A stretch of DNA of 31,940 nt from Clavulina sp. PMI_390 (lineage: Eukaryota; Basidiomycota; Agaricomycetes; Cantharellales; Hydnaceae), in the NCBI GenBank assembly GCA_015039315.1, contig WIDE01000057.1, forward strand, positions 179,180 to 211,119, given 5' to 3'. The notes under the pieces were generated by a model that was not told where the DNA came from, searched no databases, and saw only the letters and a list, made by a program, of their open reading frames with translations. The translations under genes and the position numbers were made by a program. Positions 1 to 31,907 of the stretch are shown in pieces (the stretch's first letter is position 1; each line of letters starts with the position of its first letter).

Positions 1-1888
1 CTGCAAGACTTCCGCTCCTATATTGACGAAGCGCCATCTTTGAACGAAGCAACCATTCTATCAGTTGAAGGCTACTGTCAGAAGGAGGGCCGCGCTACAT
101 CTCGATTTGTGATCCTCGAGCTGTCCCGTCGTGGTGGAACCGCGATGTGGCTCCGCTTAGAACGCCGTTTACAAAGCGTCGCGTCACTGCTGCAGATCAT
201 GAAGCGTTCTCGAGCCACCAGAGCCCAAGACAGGGTATGTGATTCCTTCCCTCGTATGTATACGCACATATGGCATTGGGGCCCGATAATATTAACCCTC
301 TCATACAGGCTACACTATCAAGTGTGAAAGCGACGCTTGTCCTTCGAGCAACGTGTGAGAACTCTTGGGCGTTAAGTGGTCGGCATCGCCTCGCTGATCT
401 CAACCACCTGCTTCGTATCATCGCAGAAGAGCTTGAGCAGTACAATATCTGGCCCGTAAGCATATGTTCTCTCTGATTTTCTTCTGTATTTACATTACCA
501 TCCATGAGCAGGAAAATTGCTGGCTCTTCTCATCTCTTATCCTCCAACATCTCGCTGAGGTTGATCCTAGCTGCCTACCTCCCATCACTCAAGTCACAAA
601 GCATATTGAAATGACACGTGCCGTTCGCAATAGAGTATCTTTAAGGCTTCAAGTGGATGAGAAGAATATCCCTACGAGCCAGGTAGCCCCGAGGCGGAAT
701 AGGACCGTCGCCCCACCTATACAGATCACTCGTCCCGTAGCTTCGAACGTCCCAAAAGACACCATTCGATCTGTTCCGGCGATTCCTTCCCTCGCAACCT
801 CATCACTTGCTCGCGCAAGCACCTTCACCCCCAAAATTCCACAAACCGACGATCCAGAAGCTGGAGTGGTGCTTTTGCGCATGCTGGACACATTGCAACG
901 GGAACGACTTTCGGAAGTCAATCGATTGCTGGTTGGGTCAGCTCAAGTGCGTCAATTTCAGGTCGTTCTGATGTCTTTGCTCTTACTCCCCATTGGTCCT
1001 TCCTAGAACTCGGCCAAAAAGCTTTACGCTCGCGGGACCTCGCTCATGCGTGCTCAGGCAGGTACGGTCGAGGAGCTCAAAATTTTCTATCATCTCCTCG
1101 AAGAACTAGCATGGAGCCTCACATTCGAGCCTGAGCCAGCAGTGATCGGCGATGCTGCATTCTTCATCATTCACGCTCGCCGCCTTCTCCCTACCGTTTA
1201 CCCCCCATCCGAAGCCCCGCCCAAACTCGCCGAATCATATTTTGTTGAGGGCCACGCCCTTTATCAATGCGAGCGTCCTCGTCAAGCGGTCCGAGCGCTG
1301 CGTAAGGCTATCAGTAGGTGCCGTGAGCTCGAACCGATCAACAATGTCCGCGTTCTCTGCTGCCTCGCGCATTCTCTCACCATACTCTCGTGGGCCCATG
1401 GCGTCCTGAATGAAAACAAACTTGCCCTAGACCATGCACTTGAGGCGGTACAACTGGCAGACGATGGAACTCATCGCTTCGCCCCCACGCAGTCATCCTT
1501 GCACATTCAGCTTGACACCGTGACTCACCAGGCGCTCAGTGATACTTGGGACGAATTCATACTTCCCATGGCCCTATCGGCCGCCACAGAGGCATTCTGC
1601 AACCTACTACAGTTCCAGGTTGCCTATGCATACGGGAAGCGAGCCGCGGAATTTTCTAGGGAGTTATTCCGGACCCGTCCTTCTGGTCGGACAGCTGAAG
1701 TGTTTGCTAATGCATTACAGCTCCATGAAAAGTCTTTGGCTACCCTCGGGAAATCAACGGAATTGGAACAGACCTGTTCACCGCAAGAATGGAGGGATAT
1801 GTTGGCATGGCTTCCCGACACTACCTGGGAGATGCATAGATTTGTAGCGGGCAGGGCTCGGAGTGATGAAGATGCATACACACAGTAA
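1..1888 (+). CDS. Module A-module C protein, copy 1 (5' end outside window)
   Basis: Function unknown. I read four exons, 1-234, 309-455, 512-946 and 1007-1888, all joined in phase 0, giving 565 residues with the start missing off the left edge. Exons 1-3 are module A, with the motifs ILSVEGY, WLRLERR, RATCENSW, YNIWP and ENCWLFSSLI. The end of exon 3 (LLRMLDTLQRERLS) and exon 4 form module C, a TPR-like run of amphipathic helices (ESYFVEGHALYQ, LCCLAHSLTILSW, YGKRAAEFSR). The intron at 947-1006 follows SAQ, exactly as in the copy at 5335-7492. The His found in the other copies before RFVxLxL is Ser here (ATSRFVILEL). The region between the ENCW motif and module C is Pro/Arg-rich and looks disordered. 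The exon model rests on paralogue alignment and is strong; the biochemical role is not inferable. Confidence 0.85.
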
Positions 1889-2280
1889 CATACACCATCA
1901 GGTTGCTGGTCAGGCATTCAATGGTAGACCTACTTTTTTGCCGCCTCTGTTACCGCTGTTGAAGACCTGCCGAGGTCCCAATAAGCCGCCACAATGTGGA
2001 GCCTAGAATGCAAATATGTAGTACTAGTGCTCCTCAATCTTGTTTAGATGCCATTTTTACGCCGATATAGTGTATGCATATTCCCGTCCCAGGGGGAAAC
2101 AAAATTGAAAGGTGTTCGTGCACTACCGGTATTGTGACAAGTTTCTATGTTATCACCTACTGATAGATAGATGTTTTCGGCCGTGAATGAGGTTTGCAAG
2201 TGTTTGGCGCGTGTGAACTCGATACTGCAAAAGCAAATGTGCTAAGAATACCAGCGTCTATCTTCAAACCCATTTCCACC
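1889..2280. other. Intergenic, no gene seen
   Basis: This 392-bp gap lies between two same-strand paralogues. It must hold the 3' end of the first and the promoter of the second. I see no coding exon or RNA gene. The ATG at 2281 has a strong start context (CCACCATGG). Confidence 0.6.
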
Positions 2281-3779
2281 ATGGATAGTTTCTTGGTGGG
2301 CTGCTCATCTGACACCAGATCTTTTATCCGCGCTCAAACCTTTCTGCTTTCAATGTAGGGATCAATATTCAATGGCTCCGGAGCGGATTCGGACCAATCA
2401 ATGAACATGCCGCAAGATTCAAACTCTATCATCCCTACGAGAGGGAAGGTAGATTGGTCGCTTGGTGATTTCTGTGATCAAGTTGAGGAGACAGTTTCCC
2501 TCAGGGAAGGAAGCCTTGTGGAGGTAGAAGGGTACTCTCAATCGTCCAACGGTATCACGCACAGATTTGTCATGCTGGCCATGATGCCATTTGGTGGCTC
2601 AAGGGCTTGGATCCGACTCGATCGTCGAATGGCCAGCGTTTCAATGCTGAAATTCCTCAAGGCTTCTGGATCAACCCTCGCAAATGACAATGTAAGAATT
2701 AGTCACCCATGCTTACGTGTTACATGGCTGAAACCACCCACGAAGGCTTCGATGTCACATAACAAAGCAAAGCTTGTCGATCATGCTACCTTGGAGAACT
2801 CTCGAGTGCTGCCAAGTCGCCCTCGTCTGGCTGATTTTATCCGCTTCTTGCGTATTCTTAATCAAGAGCTGACAAGATATACCATATGGCCAGTGAGCAT
2901 CTACATTTTCGATGGCTCGACAGGGTTAAATGTCATCCAAAATAGGAAAACTGCTGGCTCTTCTGTTCACTTATTCACCAGCATCTTGTGACAGCCGAGT
3001 TTGGCACACTTTCATGGCAGGCGCTTTCCATAAAGCACCGAAAAATGGGGCAGGCCATCCGCGATCGGGTATTCCGCCGATATCGAGCAGAAAATCCCAT
3101 GAACTTCCAGAACAACGACCCTTTGTCTTTTGACAATGGTTCTTGGGATCCATCCGCCCCTCCGTCGCATTTCCATCCTGCTGGTCTAGATCCGTCATCA
3201 TCTCATTATAATCCTGATTTTCCACCAGCAAACGAGCATCAATATGCGGATTGGGGAAATTATGACTATAATGAGGGTGGGGATCAGTATGGAGACCACC
3301 AATCTTACTACGATACCAATATTCCATCAGCAAGCAAGCGCCAATATGAGCACAGTGGAGGGTATGAAGATGGCTATAATGGAGGCGGGTACGGCGACAG
3401 TGGCAATGGGGATGAGTTTGGGGAACAGCAGACCTACCGCCATTTCGGTTCTTATCCGGCAAATGAGCATGAGTTTGGGGGGGAGTATGCCAACCATGGG
3501 AACATGGATGAATATGGCGCTAATCATGATGCTAGTCATCGCCATAACTTTGGGGGCGAATATGGCGCTCATGGTGGAGGGAATTATGGGGATGGCTACA
3601 TGGGTGACTACGGGGAGCAGCAATCTTACCATAATCCCGATTTTCAACCAGAAATCGAGCACCAATATGGTTTTGAGGAGGGAGGAAATCATAACAACGG
3701 GTATGGTCATGAGTATGAAGACCAGAGATCTGGTTTCCATATGGGCGCTTCAAGGGGAGGCTGGAGAAACGAATATTGA
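2281..3779 (+). CDS. Module A protein with Gly/Tyr/His-rich repeat tail
   Basis: Function unknown. Exons are 2281-2295, 2359-2691, 2746-2892 and 2946-3779, all phase 0, giving 442 residues. The first coding exon is only 15 nt (MDSFL); the same tiny exon occurs at the same place in the two later paralogues, which supports this start over an ATG at 2401. Module A is complete: DWSLGDFCDQVEE, THRFVMLAM, AWIRLDRR, YTIWP, ENCWLFCSLIHQHL and KMGQAIRDRVFRRY. Module C is absent. From about residue 250 the protein becomes four imperfect repeats with an EHQY-type core (ANEHQYADWG, SASKRQYEHSG, ANEHEFGGEY, EIEHQYGFEEG) in a Gly-, Tyr-, Asn- and His-rich, acidic setting. This is an intrinsically disordered, low-complexity tail. 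Donor gtgggc at 2296 is weak, so the first exon is less certain than the rest. Confidence 0.77.
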
Positions 3780-5334
3780 TATTTTTCAACCACAATGTAC
3801 GAACAAAGCAGCATAGCTTCAGTGTCCTCCGAATTCAGTAGTAGTTAATCTTTGGTATAAGAGGCTCTTGAGCGTGACTGTATCGCTTTTGAAATATGGG
3901 TTTTGAAGCTTGTACATTGATGTCAGAGTATATGAGAATCGAGACAACCATTGCTCATTGAATAGGGCATATTCCATGGTCTCCCATATACTGAAGCTTT
4001 GGAGGATAATTCTGGGCCACATTATACGGTTCGAGTGAAAGGATACACAGGAAATCACCAAGATCACCTTAGAGAACCGCATAGACGGCGGCGGACTTGC
4101 TCAGCTGTTGTACGATAAACATATTCTCCTTGGGGGAGGTGCGTTCAGCGTCTCGCAGGACTGACCAAAAGCCTCAACCCACTCTCGCTACTCAAATTCT
4201 CCAGCCTACGGAGCCCTATACCAGCCCGTGTGTAGTAACCGAGGTCCGCAAGCAGATATTATGGTTGAGGAATATGGCACGTTTGGGCGCACCATTTGTA
4301 TGGGTGGCGTATCCGCTCACTTTTTCATTGAGTCTCGCCGGCCGATCTAATTGCAACTTGGAGGAGATTGATTTACGAGCCTAAGTTGGGCTAATCGATC
4401 ACAGAACAATCGCTACTTCAACTCACTCCTCGAATTCCTCCTCCACCGCGAGCGGCCGGAGCTCTGGGCGTTACCACATGGGTGGAGGAATGTTACTGGC
4501 ATAGATTCTAGTTCATCCCATGTAAATCATTCCGGGATCATAAGCATGCGTGAGACTCGTGTCAGCTGGTCGCACCTGTCGCTCTAACTATGACTGAGTG
4601 CTTTCTATCCGCCCAGACACCCCTGAGCAACACGCTATTTAGCATCTAAAGAGATGCGGTTCTCGGCGTGAAGGCTTCGGGGTCAGAAGGGAGACTCTTT
4701 AGCTGGGTTCTTGCCTCTGCGGCAACGGCTCGCTCAGGTACAGCTTAACTCAGTGGTGATCTGAGAGGGTCGTGCGTGACAATGCCTGGAGCCGCGGGAG
4801 CGACTATGTGCTGACATTGAGTGATCTAGGCAATAATATTCTTGGGGCTGGCCATATTTGATGGCGTATTGTTTACTGCACTCAAGCTGGGAGCGCGGGA
4901 CCACTGCCGCCGTCACGCGCAGTAGTGACCGTGACAGCAATTCAAGCCAGCACTGTATCTCTTTGCCCTGTTACAGATCTCTCACCTATCGAATACAAGA
5001 AATCACTCTGGGATAGATAAAGGAGTGCATCCAATCGCTTTTTACCATAGCGCCACAGCGATTGTCCACTGAGACCGTCTCGCCTAGTCTCACTTCGATT
5101 CGCACAACTGTCCTTGGGTGGCGCCAAATGGGGTATATTCCGGCGACTTTCTCCCTTCACGCCACTCTCGCTCTAGATATCCTGCGCATCACTTGAAGCA
5201 CTGCCACTGGTCCCGTTATATGGTATCCCAACGTGCATAGGTTCAGCCCAGATGGCAGATGCACTGCTTTTAGGCTCGCTCCGACAATCATCCGCACACA
5301 CTCTTGCTATCTCTTCCCCGCACACCGCACACCA
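3780..5334. other. Long intergenic stretch, possible decayed coding fragments
   Basis: No gene model can be supported over these 1.55 kb. Short open pieces read like protein, for example around 4091-4150 (GGLAQLLYDKHILLGGG) and around 4410-4500 (NRYFNSLLEFLLHRERPELW), but they are broken by stops and are not joined by convincing splice sites. I could not place them in any family. The right end must contain the promoter of the gene starting at 5335. Confidence 0.45.
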
Positions 5335-7492
5335 ATGGACCCCCTTGTGGCGAGTCTTTCAAATCCATCGTATTCGCGATGATGATTCTTATTGGCTTTC
5401 GGAACTTAGGAAGATTTCCTCACTGTCTCTGACTCAACCATATCAACGAATGACTCTGAAACACTTCGACCATCCTCACCAACTCCTTCCTTACGATCTG
5501 TCTTATCCACAGCATCTTCGACCATATTCCTTCCATCGACAGGAGTGATTGAGCTTTCGCTCGGCGATTTCTGTGCATACGTAGATGAGGCGTCATCTCT
5601 GAATGAAGCAAATATTCTCTCAGTTGAAGGCTACCGGCAACGATCGGGCCTTGTCACTCATCGATTCGTAATACTGGAGCTATCTCGTGGTGGGCGGCCT
5701 AGTATATGGCTCCGTCTAGATCGTCGTATGGAAAGTGGTACATCGATACTGAGATTCGTGAAAGCTGCAGGATCAACCCGGGCCAACGACAGGGTGAGTT
5801 TCAACATTCATCGAATCTCCTGCGCATGAAACCCGTCTCTAACGCAATCAACGGTTTGCCTCAGGCTGCAATGTCAGGTGTCAAAGAAAAGCTCACTTTG
5901 CGAGCAACGTGCGAAAAATCTTGGGTGTTAGGCGCCCGTCCTCAGCTCGCTGAGCTCAACCGGCTACTTCGCATAATCACTGAAGAGCTCGAGCACTACA
6001 CCATCTGGCCCGTAAGTACACCCGCCCCTCACGCTAGATAGATTTTATAACATCGATAACTGCGAGCAGGAAAACTGCTGGTTCTTCTGCTCCCTGATTC
6101 AGCAACATCTCGCTAATATCGAGTGGGAATGGCTACCCTACGTCACCCGCGATGTGAAACATACCGAAATGGGCGAGGCCGTCCGCAGCAGAGTGTTTGC
6201 ACGATATAGAGAACTCCCTTCACCATCGACCCCGCCGCCTCGTCGCGAGGACCCTATTCCCTTCCACCCATGGGCCACTTGGCAACCCGATCCGCCCTTT
6301 GCTCCATCCCCACCGGCAGGTTTCAACACGACCCCACCTATCCAACCTACCCCTCCCTCGCCGCCCGCTGAGCCAAAGATGGTAGAAATTGCCCTTACTC
6401 GAGCGCCTCAGCTTTTTAGTCCCTACCCAGTTTCCAAAGCTTCCTCCACGATTGCTTTGCATGATTCTTATACATTGAACGTGGGCTACCGAGGACGTGG
6501 ATCAGTGTTGTTACGTATGCTGGATACTCTCCACAGAGAACACCTCTCACCAGAGAATCGGAAATTAGTCACATCAGCCCAGGTGCGCCACTTCATACAC
6601 ATGTTTCGTATCCTGGCACATTACTCATCTGGTGATTCCTCAGATTTTGGCTCGAAATATCTACCTCACCACAGAGTCGCAAAAAGATAGCGTCGTGGAG
6701 CTCCGAGAGCTCTATAACCTCCTAGAGCAGTTGTCATGGGGTCTCGCATTCGAGGTAGAGCCTGTGGTCGTTGAGGATGCTGCCCTCCTGATCATCCACG
6801 CCCGTGATATACTCCCCAGCGTTTACACCCCTAATCTCGTTCCATCAAAACTAGCTGAATCCTACTTTGTTGAAGGTCACATTCTCCATCAGTTAGAGAG
6901 ACCTCATCAAGCTATCCGGGCACTTGATGAAGCCAATCGGCTATGTCGCGAGCTTAACCCCACTAACAACGTTCGCCTTCTCTGCTGTTTTTTGCATTCA
7001 CTTATTATGCTCTCGTGGTCAAATCTTGCTGTGGATAGCCACACAATCGCGCTGGAACACGCAATCGAGGCAGTACAGTTCGCAGAGGACGGGGCGCGTC
7101 GCTTCGCATCCAGCCCTACTTCAACACCTCAACAAAATACAAAGGCTGTTTGCGGGCTTAGTGACGACTGGGACGATTTCATCCTTCCCATGGCTCTATC
7201 CGCAGTCATGGAAGCCTCCTGTGCTCTGAAACAATGGGGAACCGCCTGTGCATATGGAAAGCGCGCCGTTGAGATGTCGAGAGGTCTATTCCAGACCTCT
7301 CCCTCGGACCGAACCGCTGAGGTGTTTGCGAGTGCACTCCAGCTCTATGAGCTATCCTCTGCACGAGTACGCAAACATGCAGATCGTACGCGGATGTCAT
7401 CAAAAGAATGGAGTGATTTGCTGGCCTGGCTTCCGGACCCTTCGTGGGAGATGCATAAATTTGTGGAAGGAAAGGTTCGAGGTCTTGCATAG
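5335..7492 (+). CDS. Module A-module C protein, copy 2 (complete)
   Basis: Function unknown. Exons are 5335-5349, 5410-5793, 5865-6011, 6070-6582 and 6644-7492, all phase 0, giving 635 residues. The first exon encodes MDPLV, matching MDSFL and MDKTV of the neighbours; its intron seems to use a GC donor (gcgagt at 5350) and a TAG acceptor at 5409. Module A shows IELSLGDFCAYVDE, THRFVILEL, IWLRLDRR, RATCEKSW, YTIWP, ENCWFFCSLIQQHL and EMGEAVRSRVFARY. A Pro-rich linker follows, then LLRMLDTLHREHLS and the helical module C (ESYFVEGHILHQLERP, LCCFLHSLIMLSW, YGKRAVEMSRGLF, EWSDLLAWLPDPSWEMHKF). This is the best complete reference copy of the A-C architecture. Intron sizes and positions match copy 1 throughout. 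Module C resembles TPR solenoids by eye only; a scaffold role would be inference. Confidence 0.82.
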
Positions 7493-7746
7493 TGTATGAA
7501 GAACAACGTGCATCGGCGCAATTTCAGTGCCAATTATCCATGTTATTTATATGGTAACTTTAATCTGGGAGCTCTATATTGTGAAGCATACCGAAGTCCG
7601 CTGATGGAAGCAAAATCTCGAGAGTCAAGCACACCATTACTTCTTTGATCGGAATAGGATAACACGAGGCAAACACTGGCCTACAAATGGTACAACTACT
7701 TGAGAAAATCGGTACCCTCCCCCATCCGGATTGGCTCGAGTTCCTT

Positions 7747-9444: not shown

Positions 9445-12235
9445 ATGGATAAAACTGTCGTAAGCTTTGTGGTGGCATAGAAGCGAGCTTCCGGCTCACG
9501 ATTACTTTCTTGTCTCCCGTACAGGAGAGCTTTCTAACCCCGTCTGAGCCGTCCTCACCAACCGATCACTGGAGAGCCTCTCGTCCTGCTTCTCCCTCCC
9601 CATCTATACGCTCCACATCGTCCAATATCTTCGTTCCGAATTCAGGAGTGATTGAATTATCTCTTGCGGATTTCTGCGAGTATGTCAACGAACGCTCCTC
9701 GCTCAGAAAGGCATCTATATTGTCCATTGAGGGATACCGCCAACGCATTGGCGTGATTATACATCGGTTTGTTGTTCTTGCGCTGGCTCGACACGGTCAG
9801 CAGGGTATCTGGCTGCGGCTTGACCGCCGAGCAGAGAAAGGAGTGTCATTTCTCGGACTGATAAGAGCTCGAGGTACGACTCGTGCCAATGATAGAGTGA
9901 GTAGATCTTTTGGGCCAAGGAAGATATTCTAAATATCGCTCGTCCTTGAAGGCCTGCTTATCAGGTGGGAAAGAGAAACTTGTTCATCAAGCAACCCTTG
10001 AAACCGCCTATACATTTGAGAGCCACCCTTCTCTGGCTGATCTGAACCGTCTACTGGAAATTGTCACAAAAGAGCTTGAAACGTATAATATATGGCCAGT
10101 GAGTCTCGTTTTCATTTTTTGCACCCAATACCTCACGTTATCACACAGGAAAATTGCTGGTTCTTTTCCTCGCTGATTCAGCAACATCTCACTGCAGCGG
10201 AAGCCGGCTCGTTTTCCCTCGATCATCGGAGTGCGCGCCACAGTAAAATGGGTAATGCCATTCGCCAGAGAGTTTTCGCACAATACAACCAAGAAAACTC
10301 GCACAGAGCTCGCGTTGGATCTCCTCGGCCGGGCATACAAGCGGATCATTTTTCCACGAAGGCGAGAGGACCTCTCAACCGATTACTCACTTTGTCGTGA
10401 TCAAGAGTCTGTTTTAGGGAAAGCAAAAGGCTGTGAGCATACAAACGGAGGGGGAGTCCATAAACCAGCATATTGAGCGGAGCTATTACTTGAATGAACT
10501 CAACATCAACGAAGATGCAGTTCTGGAGGCAGGTACTTTACCTGCCCTAGTGGAATGGTTGACAACAGAAAGTGGGCATGTTTCACTTGAGCTCTTTTCC
10601 ATACTCGGCAGGTCAACCCCGCTATCACAGATACGGAGTCCATAGACCTTAGATTCCGCGATGTCTTCTTGACCACATATCCAATGTTCACAAGCGCGGC
10701 CACGGTGGTGAACCTGCTTGTTGCCCGTTACGAGATGAAACGACCTTATGAGAAGTGCGAGTTGGAGTTGAACCATTGGGAGGATAACCAAGTACAACTT
10801 GTGCAGATTCAGTTCGTATCTCATCTTTTATCCACTCTGTTTCCAACTCACGCGGCGAATCGCTAACCAGAGCACTCCTTGCTAATTTATTAGAGTGCTT
10901 GCGGTATTGCGCTGCTGGGTCCAAGACTATCACCTCCTTGACTCAGAGCCAGGGGAAGTGTCACGTATTTGCGCATTTCTGTCGAACATCAGGGGCCCGG
11001 AGAAGACCCAATCACTAGCGCAAAGCGTCCTTAGGATAATCGATAGCAAGGTCTATTAGTCCCTACCGTTTATGAGACCAAGATCCTGATTCCGTCATTT
11101 TAGGGCTGGGAGAAAATGCCAGCGAACCTCTCTTTGCCGCTCACGAGTGAAAGACCTACGTCACCTGATAGTGTAGGTAATTCCACCAAATAGCACAACG
11201 ACCGCGGGGCTGAGTCGATTGATATTTTGTCCAGCTCCCCTGCATCGTGGGTTTCGGTGTGAATGAATTGGCCTCCCAGCTGACGATAATGGAGTCTGAG
11301 CACTATCTTCGTATCTCCTCACATGATCTTATCGCTTCTGTGAAGGAATCCTATCCAAATTCTGGTCTAGGTATTAAGAGCTGGCCACGATCAGCAGGAG
11401 GGCTGCAAAAATACGCAAGGTTCAATCGAAGCCTGACCAAAGCTGTGATATGCATGGTTCTTGAAGCAGAGACGGTTGCCAAGCGTAGAAATATCGTGAT
11501 CCATCTGATTAATGTTACCAAGGCGAGTCTTCCTCGTTCTCCCTCCTGGTGTCTGTTCTTCGTATCCCCTGAGGGGAGCGCTTACTTTGTAAGGACCGTT
11601 CCTCCCTTTGATATTCAGGAACTCTGGACTCTGCGGAGCTTCTCGTCGCTACATTCCATTGTGTTAGGCCTAACCTCATCAAAGCTGAAAGACCTTGTCT
11701 CGACATGGTACACCATCGCAGATGAGAAAGCGTGGTTAGATAAGATACTACGACTCGCGAGGGGGTCAAGCAACAAAGGCGCATATCACGCTGAGCATAT
11801 GAGGGCAATTTCTGATGGGACTCCGTGTCTCCCAGTTATCGGTGAGTGTCGATTCTGCAAAATAAAAAGAAGAAACGCAGCTAGTAACAGGTTACGATCG
11901 AATTCTCTCATACCTCGATAGATAATTACTTGCCCTCCCTGAAGCTCCTTCTTTCAGGGCGAGAGCCCGAAATTGACCTCCTGGCACAGGCATCCACATC
12001 AACAACCACCACATCGTCACCTATCAACTTTTCGCGTCGTCGTGACATTGCCGAGGCCTGCCATACGGGCCTCCAGTTCCAGGCGCGAAAACATATTGGG
12101 ATGAAGGAGAACTTGGGACTACGGACCTGGATTGAACGGCAGCTTACGCTCGCAGCAGCTGCAAGTGAGGGGTGGTATAAAGAACGATCAAAAGAATTAA
12201 AGCAAAGCGAAGGGACGCATGCCAGTATCCGGTAG
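9445..12235 (+). CDS. Module A fused to a Ras guanine-nucleotide exchange factor
   Basis: Proposed exons: 9445-9459, 9525-9896, 9952-10098, 10149-10313, 10418-10571, 10631-10811, 10894-11050, 11104-11172, 11235-11522, 11619-11841 and 11922-12235, about 694 residues. Exons 1-4 are module A (MDKTV, VIELSLADFCEYVNE, IHRFVVLAL, IWLRLDRR, YNIWP, ENCWFFSSLIQQHL, KMGNAIRQRVF). Exons 5-8 give a RasGEF N-terminal domain (LEAGTLPALVEWL, DVFLTTYPMFTSAATVVNLL). Exons 9-11 give the Cdc25-type catalytic domain (NELASQLTIMES, FNRSLTKAVICMVLEAE, SFSSLHSIVLGLTSSKL, SPINFSRRRDIAEACH). RasGEFs load GTP on Ras-like GTPases. Exon 5 has no ATG, so it needs an upstream exon, and module A is the only candidate. The linking intron 10314-10417 has a weak donor (gttgga). 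Without it, module A would read to a stop at 10400 (261 residues). The domains are secure; the fusion is likely. Confidence 0.65.
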
Positions 12236-14846: not shown

Positions 14847-15520
14847 TCACACGTTAACCTCATCGAACGACGCTACCTGTGCTCTCAGCACGTCCACCTC
14901 GTCGTTCAAGCTAGCAACAATTGCGCGTTCCTCCTCCAACCACTTCTGCTTCTCATCAGCAGCGACCTGTGCATCACCAATTGCCTGATCCATGAGCAGT
15001 TTCTCGAGCGTCCATCTTTCGATGTTGCGCATCTCGTTCTCTTTGAGCGCGCGAATGTACTGGACGGCACGGGTAAGAATGGTAGCGCCATCATCTTCGC
15101 CGAAGGTGCTGTCACCAGGGGGTAAAAGGGCGTGGAGCTCGCTGATGCCCTTTTCAATAGCCTCTCGTCGCTGAAGCTCAACCTCGTACTACCAGGCAAC
15201 AAAAAAGGGTGTGCCGTTCGTGTCGAGGTGGGAATGGCAATGGGTCAGTCATCCATGCAAGGCAGTAGAGCGGACCCGCATTAATGTCGCCGAAGAGAAA
15301 GGGTGGTTGTTAGTCCGATAGGAAACGCGACTCTTAAGCGAGTATGGGCGCTCAAGAGTGATAGGAACGGAACCGAAAAAAGAAATGAACGCACATGATT
15401 GTCGGACTGTTGAGCGTATCCGTTCTCCGCACCGCCCTCAGCGCCTTGTGCGTTCGCATGACCGCCCGCCTGGTGGTAGTACGAGGCCTCGTTATTCACT
15501 AGAGGCACGATCGCGGTCAT
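14847..15520 (-). CDS. Short bHLH transcription factor, Cbf1-like, divergent basic region
   Basis: Two exons: 15395-15520 (MTAIVPLVNN start, strong CCACCATGA context) and 14847-15188, with a 206-bp intron; 155 residues. The intron splits the basic region after SDNH, exactly where the paralogue at 19616-21120 is split after KDNH. The helix-loop-helix follows (REAIEKGISELHALLPP, GATILTRAVQYIRALKE), then MRNIERWTLEKLLMDQAIGD and a coiled coil. bHLH factors of the Cbf1/USF class dimerise and bind CACGTG-type E-boxes. The His, Glu and last Arg of the H-E-R base-reading set are kept (NHYEVELQRR), but two basic residues are Leu and Gln, against NHKEVERRRR in the paralogue. The N-terminal domain of the paralogue is missing. 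It may bind more weakly or act as a dimer partner; that is inference. Confidence 0.82.
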
Positions 15521-16547: not shown

Positions 16548-18854
16548 TTACGCGTTCGATCCAGACTTGATCGCGCGCCCTTCCTCGACCTTGTCAGTAT
16601 TCCCGCCAAGCTTGCCACTGATAATCTTGCTCTGGCCCTTCAGCTTGCTCATGAACCCGACCTTCTTCTTGCCGGTGCTGTCGGTACTCTCCTCGCTGGT
16701 AGTAGTATCAGTGCTCTCGGTCGTCTTGGAGGGGGTGACCTTGTTCTTGAGATCTTCGGCCTTACCCTCCATCTTGTCCTTTGTCGAGACACCAGGGGCG
16801 GTAGATGGCTGGGCGATAGTGTTATCTTCAGGGTTGGAGTAGGGTGAGGACTCGTTATAGGGAGAGGCGAGAGTCTCGTTCGTCTTGCCGGCGGCGATCT
16901 CGGAGGTGGCGAGTGGGTTAGGGTGGGCTAGTGGACGTTCAAAAAGAAAAGTCGGGATCAGAACCAAGCAACAGATTTGAGGCGATACGATCATAGTAGT
17001 AAGGGAACTCACCCTTTTCCTCAGGCAGAAGTGCAACGCCCTCCTCGTTAACACCACCGGGGAGCGCGCCAACACCATCCATGCGACCGCTCAGCGGCAG
17101 CTGACCCTGGACGTCCTCGCTAGGCAGCGTCTGTGTCTGATGGTGAGGCTGAGTGTGGCCGTCATTCAAACCAGCCCTCATCCCAGGGATGAATTCGTGT
17201 GGCTTCTCGTAGACGTGCTGGGCCGTCGCGCCTGCGGCGTATCCTGCGGCGGTCAGGCCTGCACCAGTAGCCTTAGCGGACTGGGTCCAGCTCGTGCTAT
17301 TAGTGTTGGTAGGCTCGACGGCGGTGTCGGCAGGTTTGTTCGCAAGGGCGGCTAAACGAAGGAACGAAGAAATATATAAGAATCGTTTAACGAACGATGC
17401 ATGGTGGAGTGAGGAACGTACCCTTGTCATCAGGAAGGATAGCCACACCGCTCTCATCGCGATGGCCCGGAAGCGCACCAACACCATCCATACGTCCGCT
17501 CGAAGGCAGCTGACCCTCCACATCCTCACTGGGTAGGGTCCGCGCACTGGTATCGTTGGAGGGAGCCTTCATGCCGGGGATGTACTCGTGAGGCTTTTCG
17601 TAGACGCGCTGAGCAGTTGCGCCTGCTGCGTAGCCTGCAGCTGTGAGCCCTGCAGCGGTAGCCTTAGCAGACTCGGTCCACGTCGTGCTGGAGGTAGTGG
17701 GCTCGGTGGTGGCAGGGAGGGATTCGGGACCCGTGGTGGACTCCATCGCAAAGTCAGGAGCCTTGTTAGCAAGAGCCTCTGCGAGAAACAGAAAGTGAGA
17801 AAAGAGTACGAAGAATTGCAGGAGTGGACGAAGAACGCACCTTTGTCATCAGGCAAGATCGCGACACCACTCTCATCGCGGTGGCCTGGCAGCGCACCAA
17901 CACCATCTCTCGGCCCACCCATCGTGCGCGCGCCAAAGAGTTCCTGGCTCGGCAACGACGCCGTCTCGCGATCGCTCACAACCTCCTTGCTCTTATCGAT
18001 CCCCGCCGTGCTCAGATGCGTGCCAGCAAGCGTATCGACGACCGTGTTCATCGCGTTGGACGCGGTGGTCGTTGCACTGCGTGCCGCATCGGTGTTGGCG
18101 GCGGTTTGAGCGGCAGAGGAGAGTTGAGCGTAGGCGAGGGTCGCGCCAGTTGCAGCAGCCTCAACGGCGCCGCGCCCAGTTTCGGCGACATTCGAGAGGG
18201 TGGATTGGGCGGTGGTGGAGAGGTTCTGGGATGGAGTGATGGTTTCGTGGTTCGTGGTAGTTTGGATGGGGGAGGTATTTGTGGCTAGTAGAAGGCGGAG
18301 GTCGATGATGTCATGTCAGTTTGGAAAGTGCTACGATCAAGGACGAAGAGAACGCACTTTGGCTGCTGAAGGCACCCTTCACGCTCTCGGGGAGAGCGTT
18401 ATAAGCTGCGCTACCGACAGCGGCGAGTGTGGTGCCAGCATCAGAGAGCATTTGGTTGGCAGTGGTGGGCTTTTCAGTCCATCCACCAGGAACTTGGACG
18501 CCGGGGGTGCTGAATGACGGACAAGTCGCAATCAGAAGACGTGAAGAAAAGGCTGATATGAGATAGTACGTACCTTACGGTGCTGTGACTCCCCAGCATG
18601 GCATCGACATGGCCCTGAGTCTTGGCCGTCGAATCGAGACCAGTCGTCTCGTGCGGCTGGACGATGTGGCTGGTCTCGCCAGGCACAGTGCTAGATTCCG
18701 TGAGGTCGGCAGTGTTGCCGAGTGCGGATTGAGTTGACTGAGCCCAATCACTGGCGGGCTGCTCAGTGATGGCAGACGAGGCTGGTAGTCGGGGGTTGGA
18801 GTGCTTGTTGGTGGGCACGGAAGGAGAATCACCGAGAATTTGTTGTTGATCCAT
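16548..18854 (-). CDS. 650-residue protein built from duplicated GVGALPG exons
   Basis: Six exons: 18574-18854, 18358-18509, 17841-18284, 17422-17778, 17013-17351 and 16548-16927. Frames close perfectly to 650 residues. Exons 3, 4 and 5 each end with a unit of the form DGVGALPG...GVAxLP(D/E)(D/E)K followed by a phase-1 intron. Exons 4 and 5 also share SAKATxAGLTAAGYAAGATA and VYEKPHE(Y/F)IPGM. The phase-1/phase-1 exons are therefore products of tandem exon duplication. Exons 1-3 are Ser/Thr/Gln-rich and Ala-rich, with no signal peptide or membrane segment. The last exon is acidic/Lys-rich and ends in KKKVGFMSKLKGQSKIISGK and KVEEGRAIKSG. I recall the GVGxLPG motif from uncharacterised basidiomycete proteins. 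A cytosolic, largely disordered stress-type protein is a guess only. Confidence 0.87.
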
Positions 18855-19615: not shown

Positions 19616-21120
19616 ATGCCCTCCCCATCCGCAACCACCGCCTCTCTCAACATCGACCCGCGCTTGCATATGCAGCCTCAGCAGGGCGTCGTACCCACCA
19701 TCACCAACGAACAGGACGTTACGGGAGTAGCAGGTGTCGTCCAAGATGAAGCCGGCCCGAGTGGCACCGCCACTACCTCCGCTGCTGCCATCGCATCCAA
19801 GGCAGACGAGATTTATGCAGAGTATCAGAGGAGGGCGGCCGCAGCATCGGATGCGGAGGCTGAGGGGGAGCACGTCGCAGTGATGCTGAAGAACCTACCG
19901 GCGAATGCTTTGCCTCCCGTGAGTTTACGAGACAACTCGTGATATGTGGAATGTAAACAAGCTCATGTGACTTTGTTTGCCCCTTCATTTTCTACATCGT
20001 CGTCTTCTTCTTCGTGGTCGCCGTCGCTGTCTCTGATGTGTTGGCACTATCTATGGACTCCTTCGCTCTTGCTCTCGACACCATCTCTGGATATTACGTC
20101 ACTCTCTAACCACTGTGCATCACCTCGCACCTGATACTGGTTCATCTCACATGCTTCATTCCTGCTCCAACGTCCCATCTCGACTAATCCGGAATAGAAC
20201 CTCGACCCTGCTGAGCTTCGAGAACTCTACGCACAAGCAGCAGCACAACACGGAACCGTCCCTCCTCCCGCACACGGTTCACATGACCCTCACATGCAGC
20301 ACCATCTGGGACCCGAAGCATATGACGAAGCTGTGTATCATCATCAGTTGGGTGTTGACGCTGATATGGATGGTGGAGCAGGGGGTGTCGCTGGTGCTGC
20401 TGGTGGTGCAGCGGGGAGGAGGAAGAAGGCTGGTGAGATGGGGAACGCAGAGGATTGGACGAGGCAGCGCAAGGATAACCACGTACGTTTCGTCTTTACT
20501 CTCGAGAGTCGAGTCGCTCAATGGTTCAACTTGCTGACAATCGTCCCTTCTTCATCTATGCTTACCGGATGGTCGTCGTCCCACCTCCCACCCTCGTTCC
20601 GCCCACTGCGCACGACTGACGCTTTTCGCCCATGTCGTCGTATGCTTCTACCGTTCCCGCTGTTCATCTCGTGTTCAACTCGTCATTCGATTCATTCGAC
20701 TCTATATGCTCGTTGATCCAACAGAAAGAGGTAGAGCGTCGACGTCGTGGTGCCATCAACCAAGGCATCAACGAACTCTCCGCTCTCATGCCAACCAACG
20801 GCAGCTCCGACAAAGCCAAGGGCGCCATCCTCACTCGCGCCGTCCAATACATTCGCTCACTCAAGGAGAACGAGACACGCAACATCGAGAAGTGGACGCT
20901 CGAGAAGTTGTTGATGGATCAGGCAATGGGTGATTTGCAAGCGACGATTGACGAGACGCGGAGGCGATGGGAGGAGGAGCGAGTGAAGACGGTCACACTG
21001 GAAAGCCAGATTGAGATGCTGAAGACGCAGGTGGCATCACTGCAGGTGCAGTTGGGCGAGGCGACGGGGAGTGCTGGTGATGCGGGGGGTGCAGGGAGTA
21101 AGCGGCAGAGGACAGAATGA
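19616..21120 (+). CDS. bHLH transcription factor, Cbf1/USF-like
   Basis: Three exons, 19616-19918, 20198-20482 and 20725-21120, phase 0, 327 residues. Exon 1 starts MPSPSATTAS and ends KNLPANALPP. Exon 2 begins NLDPAELRELYAQAAAQ, passes a His-rich and a Gly/Ala-rich stretch, and ends in RQRKDNH. Exon 3 opens with KEVERRRRGAINQGINELS, so the basic region is complete only after splicing (residues about 190-206). GAILTRAVQYIRSLKE is helix 2; a long coiled coil follows (residues about 215-310), then a Gly-rich end, SKRQRTE. Base-contacting His, Glu and Arg are intact, so E-box (CACGTG) binding as a dimer is expected, as for yeast Cbf1, which acts in sulphur metabolism and centromere function. The introns are long for this window (279 and 242 bp); a further small exon in the first cannot be excluded. 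Confidence 0.87.
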
Positions 21121-22336
21121 AGGCGTATGCACGGGGCTTTTCCCTCTCTTCCTCTGTTTCTCCTCCCTACGTCACCATCTGTAATACTTATTTCGTCGCT
21201 TTTCCGCTATCAGTGTCGTCATGTATCTTTCATTGCGTGTGCTCACAAAACCTTTTTCTTTGCCTTTCTCCCTTGTGGCTCATTGCTCTCGGTTCCTCCT
21301 TTGGGTGTATTTAGTGTCTTCTGTCTCGCTTTTCATGATAACTCTTATCACAGCTCTCATATCTTCTGTGCCAGTCCGATTATTCTGTCTCCGTGCGATA
21401 CCTGTCCTTGGTATCCTCGTATTTCCACCCCACGCCAGACTCCATGTAATCCTAGTGTGTAATCAATCTGCCAATCTGAGCCTCACGCAGTGTCCAGATA
21501 TGAGATTCTCTTGCGGAGTATACAGAGAGTCAATTGACTCACTGGTCATATACGGTATTTTGCCGTTCCTAACAAATGACATGGAGAAGGCGGATCATAT
21601 CAGCAAGACAAGGTGGGTCCTGCAAGGTACGAGAAGTCTTAAAAGTGGATTTCAAGATAAGTTTATGGCTTGTGCCCAAAAGGGAAGCCTGGGAGCATGA
21701 TGCTTGCACTCAGCAGGAAAAAATTGGGAACGAAGCACTGTACGGAACAACCATAAGTTCAGTCCTGCGCCGCGGAGGTCCAAAGCACACTGTCTGACAT
21801 CAACCAACGATTATTCTCGGTAACGATTAGTGAAACTACATTTATTCAGCGGCGGTATCCACGAGAAAGACATCTTATTACCGCCTTGTGCTCGTTGAGC
21901 ACAACCCTATACGCCTTTGCTATCCTATGGCATGGGAAATTCTTCTATAGTCCGATGCAATGGAATCTATCATAACTCGTAATAAAATAGGCTTTACTGT
22001 GGAAAGCAAGGATTATTTACATGATGCGGCAGCTATATATGTTCGTTGGGACAACGTCACTCCTCAAAGTAGTATTGCTGGTCTTTCTATTAGGCTTATA
22101 TGGCCACAGAGGACAGTCAATAGTCTTGCTATATAAGAATTAGTTGATTATATGTTAGGTAGCTAGCCAAAATGTCCTTCCATTGTTTCAACTAGCGCAA
22201 AACTTCATGAACAGGATCATTGAGGGGGGAAGCCACCTATTGCGCCATTTTTCATACCGAATTAGCGCAAGGCCAAGTGATTCAGTTGCGCCAGGCATTT
22301 GGGATGAATGAAGACTTCTCTGGACAGTTCTACTAT
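21121..22336. other. Convergent intergenic region
   Basis: About 1.2 kb between the 3' ends of the Cbf1-like gene (plus) and the kinase gene (minus). The left part is T-rich and is likely 3' UTR. The rest is AT-rich with no recognised gene or repeat. Confidence 0.45.
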
Positions 22337-24035
22337 CTATTTGCCATGAAACCGCGAGATTTCAATAAGACGAGTCAGAACAACAGGCATGTTTGGTCTG
22401 TTGGGTGCCTCATGGTCCCACATATCTGTTATTAATATCCAGACGAGATCGACTGTTGCATCGCTTAGCGCCCCGAAGTTTCCTGGAGGCGGACGCCTGG
22501 GTCGCAACCCACGCTGCGCGGCATTAGATGCGGCCCATTCATTGGGGTATTCGGCAAATGGTTTCTGTAAGGTGGTCAGCTCAAGGATGGTCATCCCGAA
22601 TGCATAGCAGTCGGAAGCGGTGGTAGTACGGAAGGATGCTGCTTCCGACGGCAAAAGAAGCTCTGGCGCAAGGTGTCGAAGCTTTCCACCCTGAGCAATA
22701 TGTGTCTCTGAGCGGGTTTCCTCATGCTTAATGCGCGAAAATCCAAAATCACACAAGAGGCCATTCCCCTCAGCATCTATGAGAATGTTTCGCTGGAGGT
22801 TGAAATTGAAATTGTGAATGGTTGAACACTGTGACAGGGATGTGTGAGACGGCAAAGCTTACTGCGTGGAGGTCGCCATGTACAATGGGAGGTAATAGCC
22901 CGTGAAGATACTTCAGGGCGGATGCAATATCACAAACCTAGAAGGGAACATAATAAATGTTACTTGAAGGCAAGGCGTATGTTATTATTGAATCTCACGA
23001 TATTCAGCGTCGCAGCAGCTCGCTGCGTGGGCACATCTAAACTGCTCAGATACCGTATTGCATTCCCATTGACCGCAAGCGGAGTGATGATTGAGAGTGG
23101 GTGGTCATTGGTACACGAAACCCCGAGAATAGGAAGAATATTTGGATGGTGGATTTGAATCTGAGACACGATCTCTCGCCGAATTGCCTTCCCATATTAT
23201 CCTTAAGGTCAAATATACGAGAACAAGAGAGATCAATAACATACCATCACAATCCTGTGGCCTTCAGACGACGTCCAATCTCCATTCTCTGGAGGGTGGG
23301 CTTCTCGAAGTGCTACGGCTTTCCCGTCAAGATGTGCGCTCCAAATGCTAGCTTCTCCGCCAGCTGTCTTGAACTTTCGATTCAAGACTTTGAGAGTCCT
23401 GACTCGGCGCGGGAGTTTAGATGAGCGTGTCACAATGTTTTGGAGTGAGCGCAGGATTCGAGGTCGGTTTGTTCCCAGTCTCTGTGGAGGGTTGTCAAGA
23501 GCCTAGATCATGAACCGGCTCAGCATATGCCAAATGAGCTGGGAAATTTTAACCAAAGCATACACTTTGAAGGATTTCTAGAAAGAAATCCTCGTTTGTG
23601 TGACGATCCATGATATCAAAGGATTCAGGATCATTGACAATACTTTGTGCTAACATAATTGGATCTATCTTCTATGGGGAGATATCAGGAGGCTTTGTTA
23701 GCTAGCGAGAATTAAACACTATTTAGACGAGGATATTCACATCCATCAAAGTTTCGCCCGCCCCACGCGGATTTTCTCCCAAGTTTAGAATGCTACCCAG
23801 AAAAGTAGAAGCAGGTTTGGAATTAATTGAACCCTCCCGTAGTTCATGTTCAACAAGTTGGGAAAGCTCCATCGACATAGCACTGGTAATTTCAGAACTC
23901 GTTTGTTCCGCAATCGTAAGGTGTTGTTGAATAAGAGAGGAAAAGAACCAGCAGTTCTCCTGTTAGAAAGCTTAACTTTCAGATACGAGAAAAAAGAGAG
24001 CGGAACCCACGGGCCATAGTGTAATCGACTCGAGG
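22337..24035 (-). CDS. Module A-kinase gene, 5'-truncated (probably a pseudogene)
   Basis: Exons read on the minus strand: 24012-24035 (a remnant ending ITLWP), 23741-23959 (ENCWFFSSLIQQHL, the last module A exon), 23564-23671, 23245-23502, 22999-23187, 22863-22937 and 22337-22792. All junctions are phase 0. The kinase part is TKL-like: Gly-loop AGGEASIWSA, beta-3 VALREAH with Arg where the ATP-binding Lys is expected, helix C IRREI, HPNILPILG, HGDLHA for HRD, RNIL, CDFGFSR, LAPELL, SDCYAFGMTILEL and APNRPNM. The exon sizes 108, 258 and 75 nt are the same as in the kinase at 25410-28005. Upstream of 24035 the rest of module A is missing, replaced by a bHLH fragment on the other strand, so no normal start exists. 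An internal ATG in exon 23741-23959 (MSMELSQL) could give a shortened kinase. Module C is absent. Confidence 0.72.
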
Positions 24036-24678
24036 CAGCGCAAAGATAATCATGTACGTTTTATTTTTGCTTTCGAGAGTTGCGTCGCTCAAGGGTTCAA
24101 CATGCTGACAATCCTCGCGTTCCATTTCACATCCCTCGATCTGCGCTTGCTCTTTCCCCCGTTTGCCATATTGTTCGTCAAAGATTCTTTTTGTCCACAT
24201 CGCTGCACGCCTTTGCACCCTTCCATGCTGCAGATCTGCTCGGCTCGACATACACTCCGCCCGATTACACCTCTCCTGTTCATCCAACAGAAAGAAGTAG
24301 AGCGTCGACGTCGTGGTGCCATCAACCAAGGCATCAATGAACTATCCTCCCTCTTGCCCACTAACGGCGGCCCCGACAAAGCCAAGGGTGCCATCCTCAC
24401 CCGCGCCGTCCAATATATTCGTTCACTCAAGAAGAACGAGACGCGCAACATCGAAAAATGGACGCTCGAGAAGCTGCTGATGGATCAGGCGATAGGAGAT
24501 TTACAAGCAACGATTGATGAGACGTGACGACGATGGGAGGAGGAACAAGTGAAGAATGTGACGCTGGAAGGCCAGATCGAGATGCTGAAGACACAGGTGG
24601 CATCGCTGCAAGCCCAGTTGGGCGAGGCAAAAGGGACTGCTGGTGATGCAGGGGGTGCGGGGAGTAAGCGGCTGAGGG
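24032..24678 (+). pseudogene. Duplicated 3' fragment of the Cbf1-like bHLH gene
   Basis: This segment copies about 20,460-21,110 of the intact gene: the end of exon 2 (RQRKDNH), the whole intron (24051-24290, 240 bp against 242 bp) and exon 3. It is therefore a DNA-level duplication, not a retrocopy. Exon 3 starts KEVERRRRGAINQGINELS and the helix-loop-helix is intact, but a TGA at 24525-24527 replaces an Arg codon after QATIDET. Reading stays open after the stop until similarity ends near 24,678. The promoter, exon 1 and most of exon 2 are missing. Differences from the parent are mostly silent or conservative. A short bHLH peptide without the basic region (open from 24102) is conceivable but unlikely. 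Confidence 0.88.
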
Positions 24679-25409
24679 TATGCAGTATCCAAATGGAGTA
24701 TTTGGATATCGGTATTTTGCTTCGATGATCTCGGAGCGCCATTGTGAAGGTGGGCTGTCTCGTCTATCGGGATGTTGCGCATATGACTCTATTACATATG
24801 TGTTCTCCAGCTACCATGCTTGCAGTGGTAGACAATAATTTATTGCTGAGATTGAGATGAGCAACGGAGGAGCAGTATTGGCGTGCAGAAATACAGGCGA
24901 CCCAAACGCTGTTCCAATCAAGATACAGTACTCGAAACCTACGGTATATCCCGGCTCTCCCGAATATCCAAATACAGCTCCAAAATACTGACACAGTATT
25001 GCACCCCAACAAGCCGGAGCCGGACCCACGAGGCAGTGCGACACAACCTCCTAAACAAAGCCCCTTCCCCTTTCACCCATCTAAGAGCCTCAAGGACTCG
25101 TCTTTCACATTATATCACTCACCAACCCTGGAATTAAGGCCACTACGCCTCCCTGTGCAACAGATAAATCCACCGTAGAGCGTTCAATACGTCTAGCCTG
25201 AAGAACACACTGCCCAAACTATCCTCCGCTAGAGCACATTCCCGGATTCTCTGCCCCGACTTTACCCCCCAAGGCTCTTTTATTTTTTACCCACTCACAA
25301 CTGGAAGTCAAGTAAGCCTCAAACGTCATCTTACGGCGCCCGCCAGCTACCCTACACTGAGAGAATTGATGCTTGATGCCATATACAGCGTCTTGGAGAG
25401 AATTACATC
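24679..25409. other. Non-coding stretch with repeated AT-rich words
   Basis: It starts where the bHLH duplicate ends. Near 24,682-24,706 there is a small palindrome (ATCCAAAT, 5-nt loop, ATTTGGAT), and related words (AATATCCAAATAC, AATACTG) recur around 24,960-25,000. I recognise no module A, kinase or transposase piece here. It should include the promoter of the kinase gene that follows. Confidence 0.4.
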
Positions 25410-28005
25410 ATGCTTTCTTGTCCTAAGGATCCAACCAAAACCCCCGTAAAACCTTCTTGCCCTAACAACCGTCCTCGATCTAACGGCCTAAATTATCGTT
25501 CTATAGGCTCTTGATCCAATCCCATTTGCAAAAACAATTATCACTAGCCCGGGGTCCTTCAATATTATGAATGATGAAACAAGTCAAGCCTTTTTCCTGG
25601 ACATTCTTCAAGCCGTATGCACAGATCCTTCTCCTCAGAAATATGAGTAGACTGATAGGCGCCTGCTTTAATAGGCTCTTGACGAGCCTCCATACAGACT
25701 TGGGGGAAGCCGACCTCAAGTTTTACGTGTGGTCCAAGATATTGTGGCATGTCTGGGCAAGCTCCCTAGTCGAGTGAAGACGTTGCAATTGCACAACCGA
25801 GTTTTCAAGGATGCTGGGGGTGAGGCTTTTATTTGGACTGCTGAATTCAATAGTCAATTAGTGATTGTTCGGGAGGCACGACCTCCCGAGAACCGAGACT
25901 GGGCCTCACCTGAAGGCAGGAACATTGTGTTGGTGTGCTATGCTTCTCTTTATTGTTTTTACTCCCTCTACTGATAGAGTTGTTGAGGAAAGGCAATACA
26001 GCGAGAAATAATGTCTCAGATCCAAATTCAACATCGGAATGTGCTACCTGTTCTTGGAATCTCATCTGATCATCATCATCCACTAGCAATTGTGACACCA
26101 TTTGCTGCCAATGGGAATGCAATTAGCTACTTAACTGGTTTAGAAATGTCTGAGCAACCTGCTGCAATGTTCAGAATTGTGAGTTTTGGTCTGGGCCTCA
26201 AACTGTGCTGAGTATTCTTATCCTCTATCAAAGATTCACAATATAACATCTGCCCTGGAGTACCTTCATGGAATGCTCCCTCCCATTGTCCATGGTGATA
26301 TTCATGCAGTAGGCACTGAATCAGTTGTTTGACTGCCAAGCTGATTGATAAAAAATGAATTTAGCGGAATATACTGGTAGATTCTGAAGGTGAAGGTCTT
26401 CTCTGTGATTTTGGCCTATCCCGCATAAAGCATGAACCAACCCGCACTACAACTGGGGCCCTTGAGGGTGGGAAGCTGCGCCATCTTGCTCCAGAGCTTC
26501 TGATGTTACAGCCCAATCAACCTTTCCGTTCCACCCCAGCTTCTGATTGTTATGCATTTGGAATGACCATTCTTGAGCTTGCCACACTCCAAAAACCATT
26601 TGTGGAATATCACAACAAGCAGGCAGCCTCCAATGCAGCAAGGAACGGGCTGCGGCCTGAGCAGCCATTGGCAAAAGTATTTGGAGCAATGTGCAACTCC
26701 ACAATCACCATGCTTTGGCAGCTGCTGGAAGAGATGTGGGTACATGAGCCTACCAAAAGGCCAAACATGCAGGCAGTTCTCAGCAGTATCATTCAACTCT
26801 CTGTGGATCATTCACAGGCTCTCTCCCTGAAAAATGATACTCCTATTTTACCAACTAGCCCACCTGCAGTAACTGACAGCTCTTCAATGAGCCTGGTATC
26901 CCCAATGCAGCATCACCATCTACCATTAGCTGCTACATATTCAGCTGTGTTTGAAACTCCTCAAACTCAACAAAATATTGATTTGTACAGCATTGTTGTT
27001 CTGGGAGATGATGACCACCAAATTGGCCATTCCCTCCTGCATGCACTAGATATGCTGGAACAGATCAATTCTTTCTCAAATGCAGACAAAGATGACTTTG
27101 CAGCAGCTCAGGTGTGTCCTGAATCTATAGTGTCATGACTCTCATTCACTGAAAGCTCACTGTTTCAGTATTATGCAAGAAAGCTCCATCCCCTCAAATC
27201 CTGTGTTGAAGCTCCAAAAATTCCTAGAACAAGCACAAATGAGCTAAAGAACCTTCTCTCTGTATTGCTGAGGATACATTGGAGGACAGTTATCTTGCAT
27301 GCAAAACTGGAGGACATTCTAGCTAGCATTGAATATGCTTGTCACTTTCTCCCAAGAGTTTATGAGGGAGATGAGCTGAATAGCAAACTTGCTGATCTTT
27401 TATCCCAAAAAGGATATGCACTGTATATCTTTCAGTTCAATTTCAGAGCTATTAAACTCTTCCAGCAGGGAATCCTACTTTGGGCCAAGCTGGGTGCAGC
27501 TAATAACCTGGAAATGCTTCCAGATATGGTTGACTCTTACCAGATACTATCATGGGCCTACCTGGATGTAGGTGAACATGCACTGGCGCTGGAACAGGCC
27601 CTGAAGGCCACACAAATAGCCAAAGATGGCTCACAGCTCTTTGGTTCTGGCCCAAATATTGATTCTGGATGGCCCAAGTGGCTTTTGCCATTGTGCCTTT
27701 CAAATGTTTCACGGGTCTTTTGTGCAATGCAAGAATTTGATGATGCACTCATTTATGGGAAACAAGCAGCAGAGCTTGGACGAGATGGATTCCACTGCAG
27801 CCCATCCAATCCCACAGCTGGCTCATTTGCACTGGGCCTTGATTGGTATGAGAAGTCATTGGTTGGGTTAGGATTGTGGCAGGATAGCAGTCTCCATGAG
27901 ATGTGCTCACCAAGAGAATGGAGGGATATGTTGACCTTGCTTGATATTGATCAATCTGAATATGAATATGTACATACAAAGGTACTAGGCCTTGACTCCT
28001 CTTAG
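25410..28005 (+). CDS. TKL-like protein kinase fused to module C
   Basis: Exons: 25410-25445 (putative start, MLSCPKDPTKTP), 25507-25614, 25675-25932, 25993-26178, 26234-26308, 26365-27111 and 27169-28005; all phase 0, about 748 residues. The kinase carries AGGEAFIWTA, beta-3 VIVREAR (Arg in place of Lys), helix C IQREI, NVLPVLG, HGDIHA (HRD position), RNIL, CDFGLSR, LAPELL, SDCYAFGMTILEL and KRPNM. A Ser/Pro-rich linker follows, then GHSLLHALDMLEQ and module C (LSQKGYALYIFQF, DSYQILSWAYLDVGEHALAL, YGKQAAELGR, EWRDMLTLL), ending at 28005. The intron after AAQ sits where the A-C genes have it after SAQ. Exons 2, 3 and 5 match the sizes in the minus-strand paralogue. From exon 4 onward CpG is nearly absent, yet there is no stop or frameshift. 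Catalytic Asp, Asn and DFG are present; the missing Lys leaves activity uncertain. The first exon is the weakest part. Confidence 0.8.
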
Positions 28006-31882: not shown

Positions 31883-31907
31883 AATGGGAAACAAAATGGA
31901 CTAGCCT

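Follow-up and report, generated by a model that had tools for sequence, protein, structure and literature searches.

A large, probably recombining family of multi-domain genes around an unnamed front module in the fungus Clavulina sp. PMI_390

Six loci in a 31,940-nucleotide stretch of DNA from the fungus Clavulina sp. PMI_390 (assembly GCA_015039315.1, contig WIDE01000057.1, positions 179,180 to 211,119) probably belong to a large fungal family of multi-domain genes that has been amplified in tandem and recombines. In this family, a front module called A is combined with variable C-terminal parts, and the encoded proteins might work in a recognition-like manner. It is very probable that module A, a second module called C, and a kinase domain have recombined within one family. 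At least one gene has evidently changed its partner by recombination inside an exon that codes for a linker, and not at an intron, and some copies have evidently decayed. A dedicated role for the family in recognition is far less certain, and is perhaps best regarded as unlikely.

The whole stretch is called the window here. It is C255:179180-211119 of a 39.4-Mb assembly of 301 contigs, its right edge is the contig end, and 2421 N directly precede its first base. The window is intron-rich and has fungal gene content (F-box, bHLH, and TKL-like kinases), and a search with Rfam gave no matches at gathering scores. Gene models were rebuilt from splice sites in the DNA, and the scope throughout is one genome. 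The six loci are numbered g1 to g6 from left to right. In g1 to g4, module A comprises a long first part, an exon of 147 nt, and an exon starting ENCW; the first, middle (second), and last A exons are called A1, A2, and A3.

A profile search of the assembly returned at least 88 matches to A1 at E ≤ 0.01, distributed over 39 of the 301 contigs, and 52 of these lie within 10 kb of another. There were 47 matches for the middle exon and 70 for the last, and all such genome-wide counts are lower bounds. Module C gave 31 matches at E ≤ 0.001. The kinase C-lobe, for which 150 of 207 candidates were scored, gave at least 150 (E ≤ 1e-6), a very large TKL-like expansion that includes the window's kinase. 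RasGEF was matched twice, the second time on a contig that carries no A match. A stop is present in 3 of the 88 A1 matches, and the frame changes in some copies.

Apart from these profile counts, the DNA that was read comprised about 290 kb and two 3-kb stretches, with 31 of the 88 A copies lying outside it. Among the 290 kb there were 57 matches to the A1 profile, fragments included, and 45 A modules passed a filter for three intact exons. Thirty of these are followed by C, one by RasGEF, and 14 by none of C, kinase, or RasGEF, where partners were sought up to 1.9 kb downstream of A and C includes weaker TPR matches. The same DNA holds nine kinase-C loci. A reading of the window made earlier from its letters alone had named a single fixed architecture for A and C as the outcome that would refute a module-recombining family; inside this genome, where several architectures were seen, it was not refuted.

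Additional combinations are candidate fusions. On contig C274 (locus L050), A is followed by an exon that appears by eye to be TPR. All three A exons and a kinase are present at C22:89806-92100, with A1 ending in a frame change, and near C22:37438-39425 a Ser/Thr kinase frame, which scores 140 bits with Pkinase when joined approximately, lies behind A. On C216 (L049), a kinase follows an A in which Tyr replaces the His and Asn-Cys is missing. The reverse order, kinase and then a degenerate A, occurs at C2:304279-306556 and 308955-310466 on the minus strand (L027), with Cys lost in both loci and His changed to Gln in one. Two other candidates, a tail found in three copies on C22 and a basic tail behind A on C94, have no Pfam match. 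By eye, the three adjacent A genes at C22:57349-63259 (L022) apparently share the C-terminal tail RVVLxLxSHxHP...LxVASALWD.

Partner change and the position of module joins

A clear example of swapped domains with the breakpoint inside an exon is the A-C gene at C186:1958-4862. Its portion 1958-3460 matches an A gene on C26 (85.1%, and 95.7% at 3229-3460), and its portion 3556-4862 matches a kinase-C gene on C122 (75.5%). The switch between them falls in a 95-nt stretch, mid-exon, within a single open frame (3236-3889). The C26 counterpart has the same A, but continues into a basic, Ser-rich tail.

The tree of 20 full-length C modules places the C module of this gene (C186:3978) with four kinase-C modules (100/98), and an inner fork unites it with two of these (95/91). 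A clade of all seven kinase-C modules, a label fixed before the tree, was rejected by the approximately unbiased test (p-AU 3.6e-55), and a clade of the four nearest kinase-C modules without C186, a set chosen post hoc from the tree, gave p-AU 0.019. Support is weak at most of the other forks (of 17, three are starred and 11 open), and the C298 module forms a long branch.

Divergence of partners is also seen between sister A modules on C263, at 135429 and 141034, which are 83% identical. Across 983 bases that cover A and upstream sequence, the two genes are 77.6% alike, and they diverge 24 bases past the end of the A match; the first carries C, and the second carries another module that has seven genome copies, six of them elsewhere. 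Six changes of partner class appear in the A tree as drawn, or four if starred branches alone are counted. The proposal that modules were recombined within one lineage is therefore supported, most directly by the C186 chimera and the C tree. As a separate observation, the module behind A at C263:141731-142096 (L019) has a pattern, HHHFLLI...FWLRIE, that weakly recalls A; as a second A-like domain it is weak, with 8, 48, and 139 of 1000 shuffles reaching the scores of A1 and of the two remaining parts, respectively.

The sequence-only reading attributed this recombination to exon shuffling, meaning that modules moved as exons through intron recombination in matching phase. The features on which it relied are present. 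Each of the four copies has a second A exon of 147 nt (309-455, 2746-2892, 5865-6011, and 9952-10098), and the phase-0 intron after (S/A)AQ occurs in g1, g3, and g6 and recurs in further C modules. The 147-nt length is not universal in the genome, since 29 of 36 full-length A2 matches have it and seven span 150-156 nt (these are match lengths, not mapped exons). Shared positions and phase 0 speak for shuffling, but the shared introns sit within A and within C.

The location of the joins was examined with a profile of the helix that precedes the AQ intron, which matched the fetched DNA 16 times at E < 0.05 (including its own three seeds; seven weaker matches were dropped). All 16 have C 113-180 nt downstream. 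The donor after the helix reads Q and then V (a GT codon) in 15 of them and W and then V in the other. The open frame of the helix extends to the kinase C-lobe in seven instances, to the last A exon in six, and to neither in three. Because it shares frames with A or the kinase and always has C downstream, the helix belongs to C, which puts the AQ intron inside C. The A-C or kinase-C border thus lies inside an open frame in 13 of the 16, and the conserved introns reflect common descent of each module instead of shuffling at introns. Intron-mediated shuffling was rejected for A-C and kinase-C on these 13 joins (three are undecided) and on the mid-exon switch in C186. There is room for it in the three helices that share no frame with A or the kinase, where an intron is possible, and A may have been joined to RasGEF at a phase-0 intron predicted at 10314-10417. 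As a general account of the family, classical exon shuffling is very improbable.

A more mundane concern is that the joins are not fusions, but adjacent separate genes or misassembled repeats. Several clusters do lie on short contigs (10.7-36.9 kb), there are N runs in four of the fetched stretches, stops and frame changes occur as mentioned above, and the gene models are made from DNA alone. This possibility is difficult to reconcile with the six loci at which a single open frame runs through the end of A, the linker, and the first C helix, with the seven open frames that hold kinase-C joins, and with the presence of C at most 1.9 kb downstream in 30 of 45 intact A modules. We consider it as improbable as classical shuffling.

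Folds, residues, and constraint of the modules

According to its predicted structure, module C is a tetratricopeptide repeat (TPR) solenoid. An AlphaFold2 (AF2) model of the g3 exon, made with g1 and g6 rows, is all-helical with 12 helices and has a predicted template modeling score (pTM) of 0.82. Foldseek matched this model to the TPR domains of LGN, KLC, and Rap, with E 2.7e-4 and probability 1.0 for LGN and KLC and 31 chains at E ≤ 0.001. Scores against the Pfam TPR models listed were all below cut-off (the best, TPR_12, reached 23.1 bits versus 30.1), which may explain why the module looked unnamed. Of the unknown domain pair that had been proposed, C is thus a TPR domain, whereas A had no match in Pfam (save that of one paralogue at E 0.27), in NCBIfam, or, at E ≤ 10, among PDB sequences.

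The kinase module scores 99.8 bits with PK_Tyr_Ser-Thr on joined exons, versus a cut-off of 23.1, and its best PDB match is CTR1 (E 3.8e-20). The VAIK motif marks the beta-3 lysine of kinases. Of the 10 rows that cover this site, placed by eye on the motif, nine have Arg and one has Trp, and the DFG motif is kept in 11 of 12 rows that cover its site. With the lysine replaced and DFG kept, this subfamily may consist of weak kinases or pseudo-kinases.

Modules A and C evidently differ in constraint. The ratio of nonsynonymous to synonymous substitution (dN/dS) of A is 0.10-0.21 in six of seven close pairs, the seventh having saturated dS. For C, the ratio is 0.30-0.41 in four of five pairs, and 0.12 in the g1/g3 pair (dS 2.5, near saturation). 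Among 12 A-C genes, A identity exceeds C identity in all 66 pairs, although the pairs have genes in common and so are not independent. Module A is therefore the constrained part and C the looser, diverging part, as far as such comparisons can tell.

The identity of A has to be approached through its residues. Three spliced A proteins had no Pfam match at E ≤ 10 (a search whose filters remove the majority of matches with E above about 0.1). For A there was also no NCBIfam match, and no match among PDB sequences at E ≤ 10. Sixteen A paralogues gave one Pfam match, MapZ_C2 at E 0.27, and neither they nor the spliced proteins matched the PPPDE, LRAT, or C92 models. Profile searches of the PDB and a search of a viral fold library were likewise fruitless. 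Among rows with a letter, His is conserved in 53 of 55, Asp in 51 of 55, Cys in 48 of 52, and Trp in 52 of 52. An AF2 model of exons A1 and A2, partial and from a shallow alignment, has a mean predicted local distance difference test (pLDDT) score of 62.8 and pTM 0.57, with 86 of 159 residues at 70-90; it places His49 and Asp69 on consecutive strands. A thus has a conserved Cys and a conserved His, and on the strand that follows the His another polar residue, with strands taken from the partial model.

These features, namely the conserved His, Asp, and Asn-Cys-Trp, suggest a helix-permuted papain-like fold that the partial model fits, and we come close to favoring this assignment without quite doing so. 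Foldseek found no significant match for the partial A1-A2 model. That A is catalytic is a more tentative suggestion, and an equally tentative alternative is that A serves for binding or as a scaffold, without enzymatic activity, in an ordinary signaling family, with structural His, Asp, and Cys. For this alternative speak the absence of a significant fold match, the many other columns (Trp, Leu, and Arg) that are as conserved as the three residues, and the several copies that lack Cys or His. A scaffold would account less readily for the combination of a His at a strand start, an Asp 20 residues later, and Asn-Cys-Trp where a helix probably begins, which recalls papain-like enzymes. Also, the copies without His or Cys on C2 and C216 adjoin kinases and are otherwise degenerate. 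However, two A copies on C154 with Cys changed to Ser still have C downstream, as does g1, which has Ser at the conserved His site and Glu at the conserved Asp site and is predicted to carry an inactive A.

If A does have a papain-like fold, it would resemble a cysteine enzyme with the order His strand, Asp strand, Cys helix, in which the Cys helix has been permuted to the end, as in PPPDE and LRAT. The TPR part would bind variable ligands, and binding might release, direct, or gate A, so that the repertoire would work like sensor/effector proteins. Variants with a kinase, RasGEF, or other tail could re-route or quench the output.

Loci of the window

The sequence-only reading described the six loci correctly with one exception, the supposed A-kinase gene at 22337-24035 on the minus strand. 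All others are on the plus strand. The A-C gene g1 (1-1888; exons ending at 234, then 309-455, 512-946, and 1007-1888) is also an incomplete copy, because its 5' end is lost in the N run before base 1. Locus g2 (2281-3779; exons 2281-2295, 2359-2691, 2746-2892, and 2946-3779) joins A to a repetitive tail rich in Gly, Tyr, Asn, and His. The intact A-C gene g3 (5335-7492) has exons 5335-5346, 5410-5793, 5865-6011, 6070-6582, and 6644-7492, of which the fourth codes for the end of A, the linker, and the first C helix, and the fifth for the TPR part. In the A-RasGEF gene g4 (9445-12235), the A exons are 9445-9459, 9525-9896, 9952-10098, and 10149-10313, the last donor being inferred. RasGEF_N and RasGEF span 10418, an inferred acceptor, to 12235 (Pfam E 4e-17 for RasGEF_N, on joined exons, and 7e-17 for RasGEF). 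The kinase-C gene g6 (25410-28005) has an exon at 26365-27111 with the kinase C-lobe, linker, and first C helix, and another at 27169-28005 with the TPR part.

The exception, g5 (22337-24030, minus strand), is a kinase gene in which A is reduced to its last exon, from about 23960 downward; A1 is gone, and so is almost all of A2. A bHLH gene is duplicated in the window (20460-21111 and 24031-24677, 77.6% alike), and the second copy begins at 24031, where g5 is cut. The idea that the window contains an intact A-kinase gene was thus rejected, A being cut short by the bHLH duplicate.

An A-gene relic around the second A exon lies at 21497-21734 on the minus strand and is 82.8% alike to C186:2988-3226. 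On C186, the matching stretch continues into the rest of the A-C gene and then a bHLH gene. In the window, the counterpart of C186:3227-4918 (the rest of A, plus C) is absent and the bHLH gene adjoins directly, so the window lacks about 1.7 kb there relative to C186. A third, more distant bHLH exon is found at 14847-15188 (minus strand), and the same bHLH gene stands beside the A-C gene of C186. Two other features were noted in the window. Adjacent small proteins encoded at 16548-18315 (minus strand) carry, by eye, a repeated GRMDGVGALPG...GVAxLPxxKG motif and have no Pfam match at E ≤ 0.01. Near the contig end, a 160-bp inverted repeat (31328-31486 versus 31724-31883, 81% alike) is possibly a small mobile element.

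Comparison with known systems

Among the papers listed by literature searches, none described an A family. The nearest enzyme families might be PPPDE/C97, C92, and LRAT, which are described as helix-permuted and papain-like (PMC10318531), and A shares with them the residue order of His strand, polar strand, and Cys helix. A differs from these families in matching no Pfam model and in showing no significant fold similarity. The Asn-Cys-x-x-Phe at the Cys of A presumably resembles PPPDE and LRAT motifs, and we know of no counterpart of the A motifs WLRLDRR and IWP in PPPDE, C92, or LRAT. Vasohibins (VASH1/2) account for 17 of the 50 Foldseek rows listed for the A1-A2 model, none of them significant. 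In vasohibins, the Cys precedes the His, which makes them unpermuted. They have a Cys-His-Ser triad and a family distribution that excepts fungi (PMC4866520).

The partners of A have clearer relatives. The TPR domains of KLC, LGN, and Rap have a fold in common with C, but the Pfam TPR scores of C are below cut-offs. The large kinase expansion here, with at least 150 matches, is similar to the TKL/FslK expansions of Agaricomycetes as described in one report (PMC3937382). In contrast to the kinase-C genes, the term "TPR" is absent from the text of that report, and the kinases here have Arg or Trp at the beta-3 lysine site in 10 of 10 rows.

To our knowledge, fungal receptor-like repertoires have been studied mainly as NACHT/NB-ARC proteins. 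The NLR-like parallel in the sequence-only reading is weakened by the finding that none of the 59 NACHT matches in the genome lies within 12 kb of any of the 88 A1 matches. By NACHT, the one defining domain tested (NB-ARC, PF00931, was not searched), the A-family proteins are evidently not NLRs. The part of the parallel that stands is one of organization: a conserved front domain, a faster-diverging solenoid, tandem copies, decay, and changes of partner together suggest a likeness to sensor/effector repertoires. Fungal NLR (STAND) proteins, including those of Agaricomycetes (PMC9815663), show a general likeness in their conserved N-terminal part, divergent repeat-containing C-terminal part, and many genes. 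The boldest proposal, which we regard as still less likely than a recognition role itself, is that A founds a new helix-permuted papain-like enzyme family that, with TPR sensors, constitutes a NACHT-free counterpart of NLRs, in which swaps in the linker exon yield kinase, RasGEF, or pseudo-enzyme switches or decoys. With its size, its conserved front domain, and its diverging TPR part, the family would run parallel to NACHT/NB-ARC systems and would be a candidate for self/non-self or pathogen recognition.

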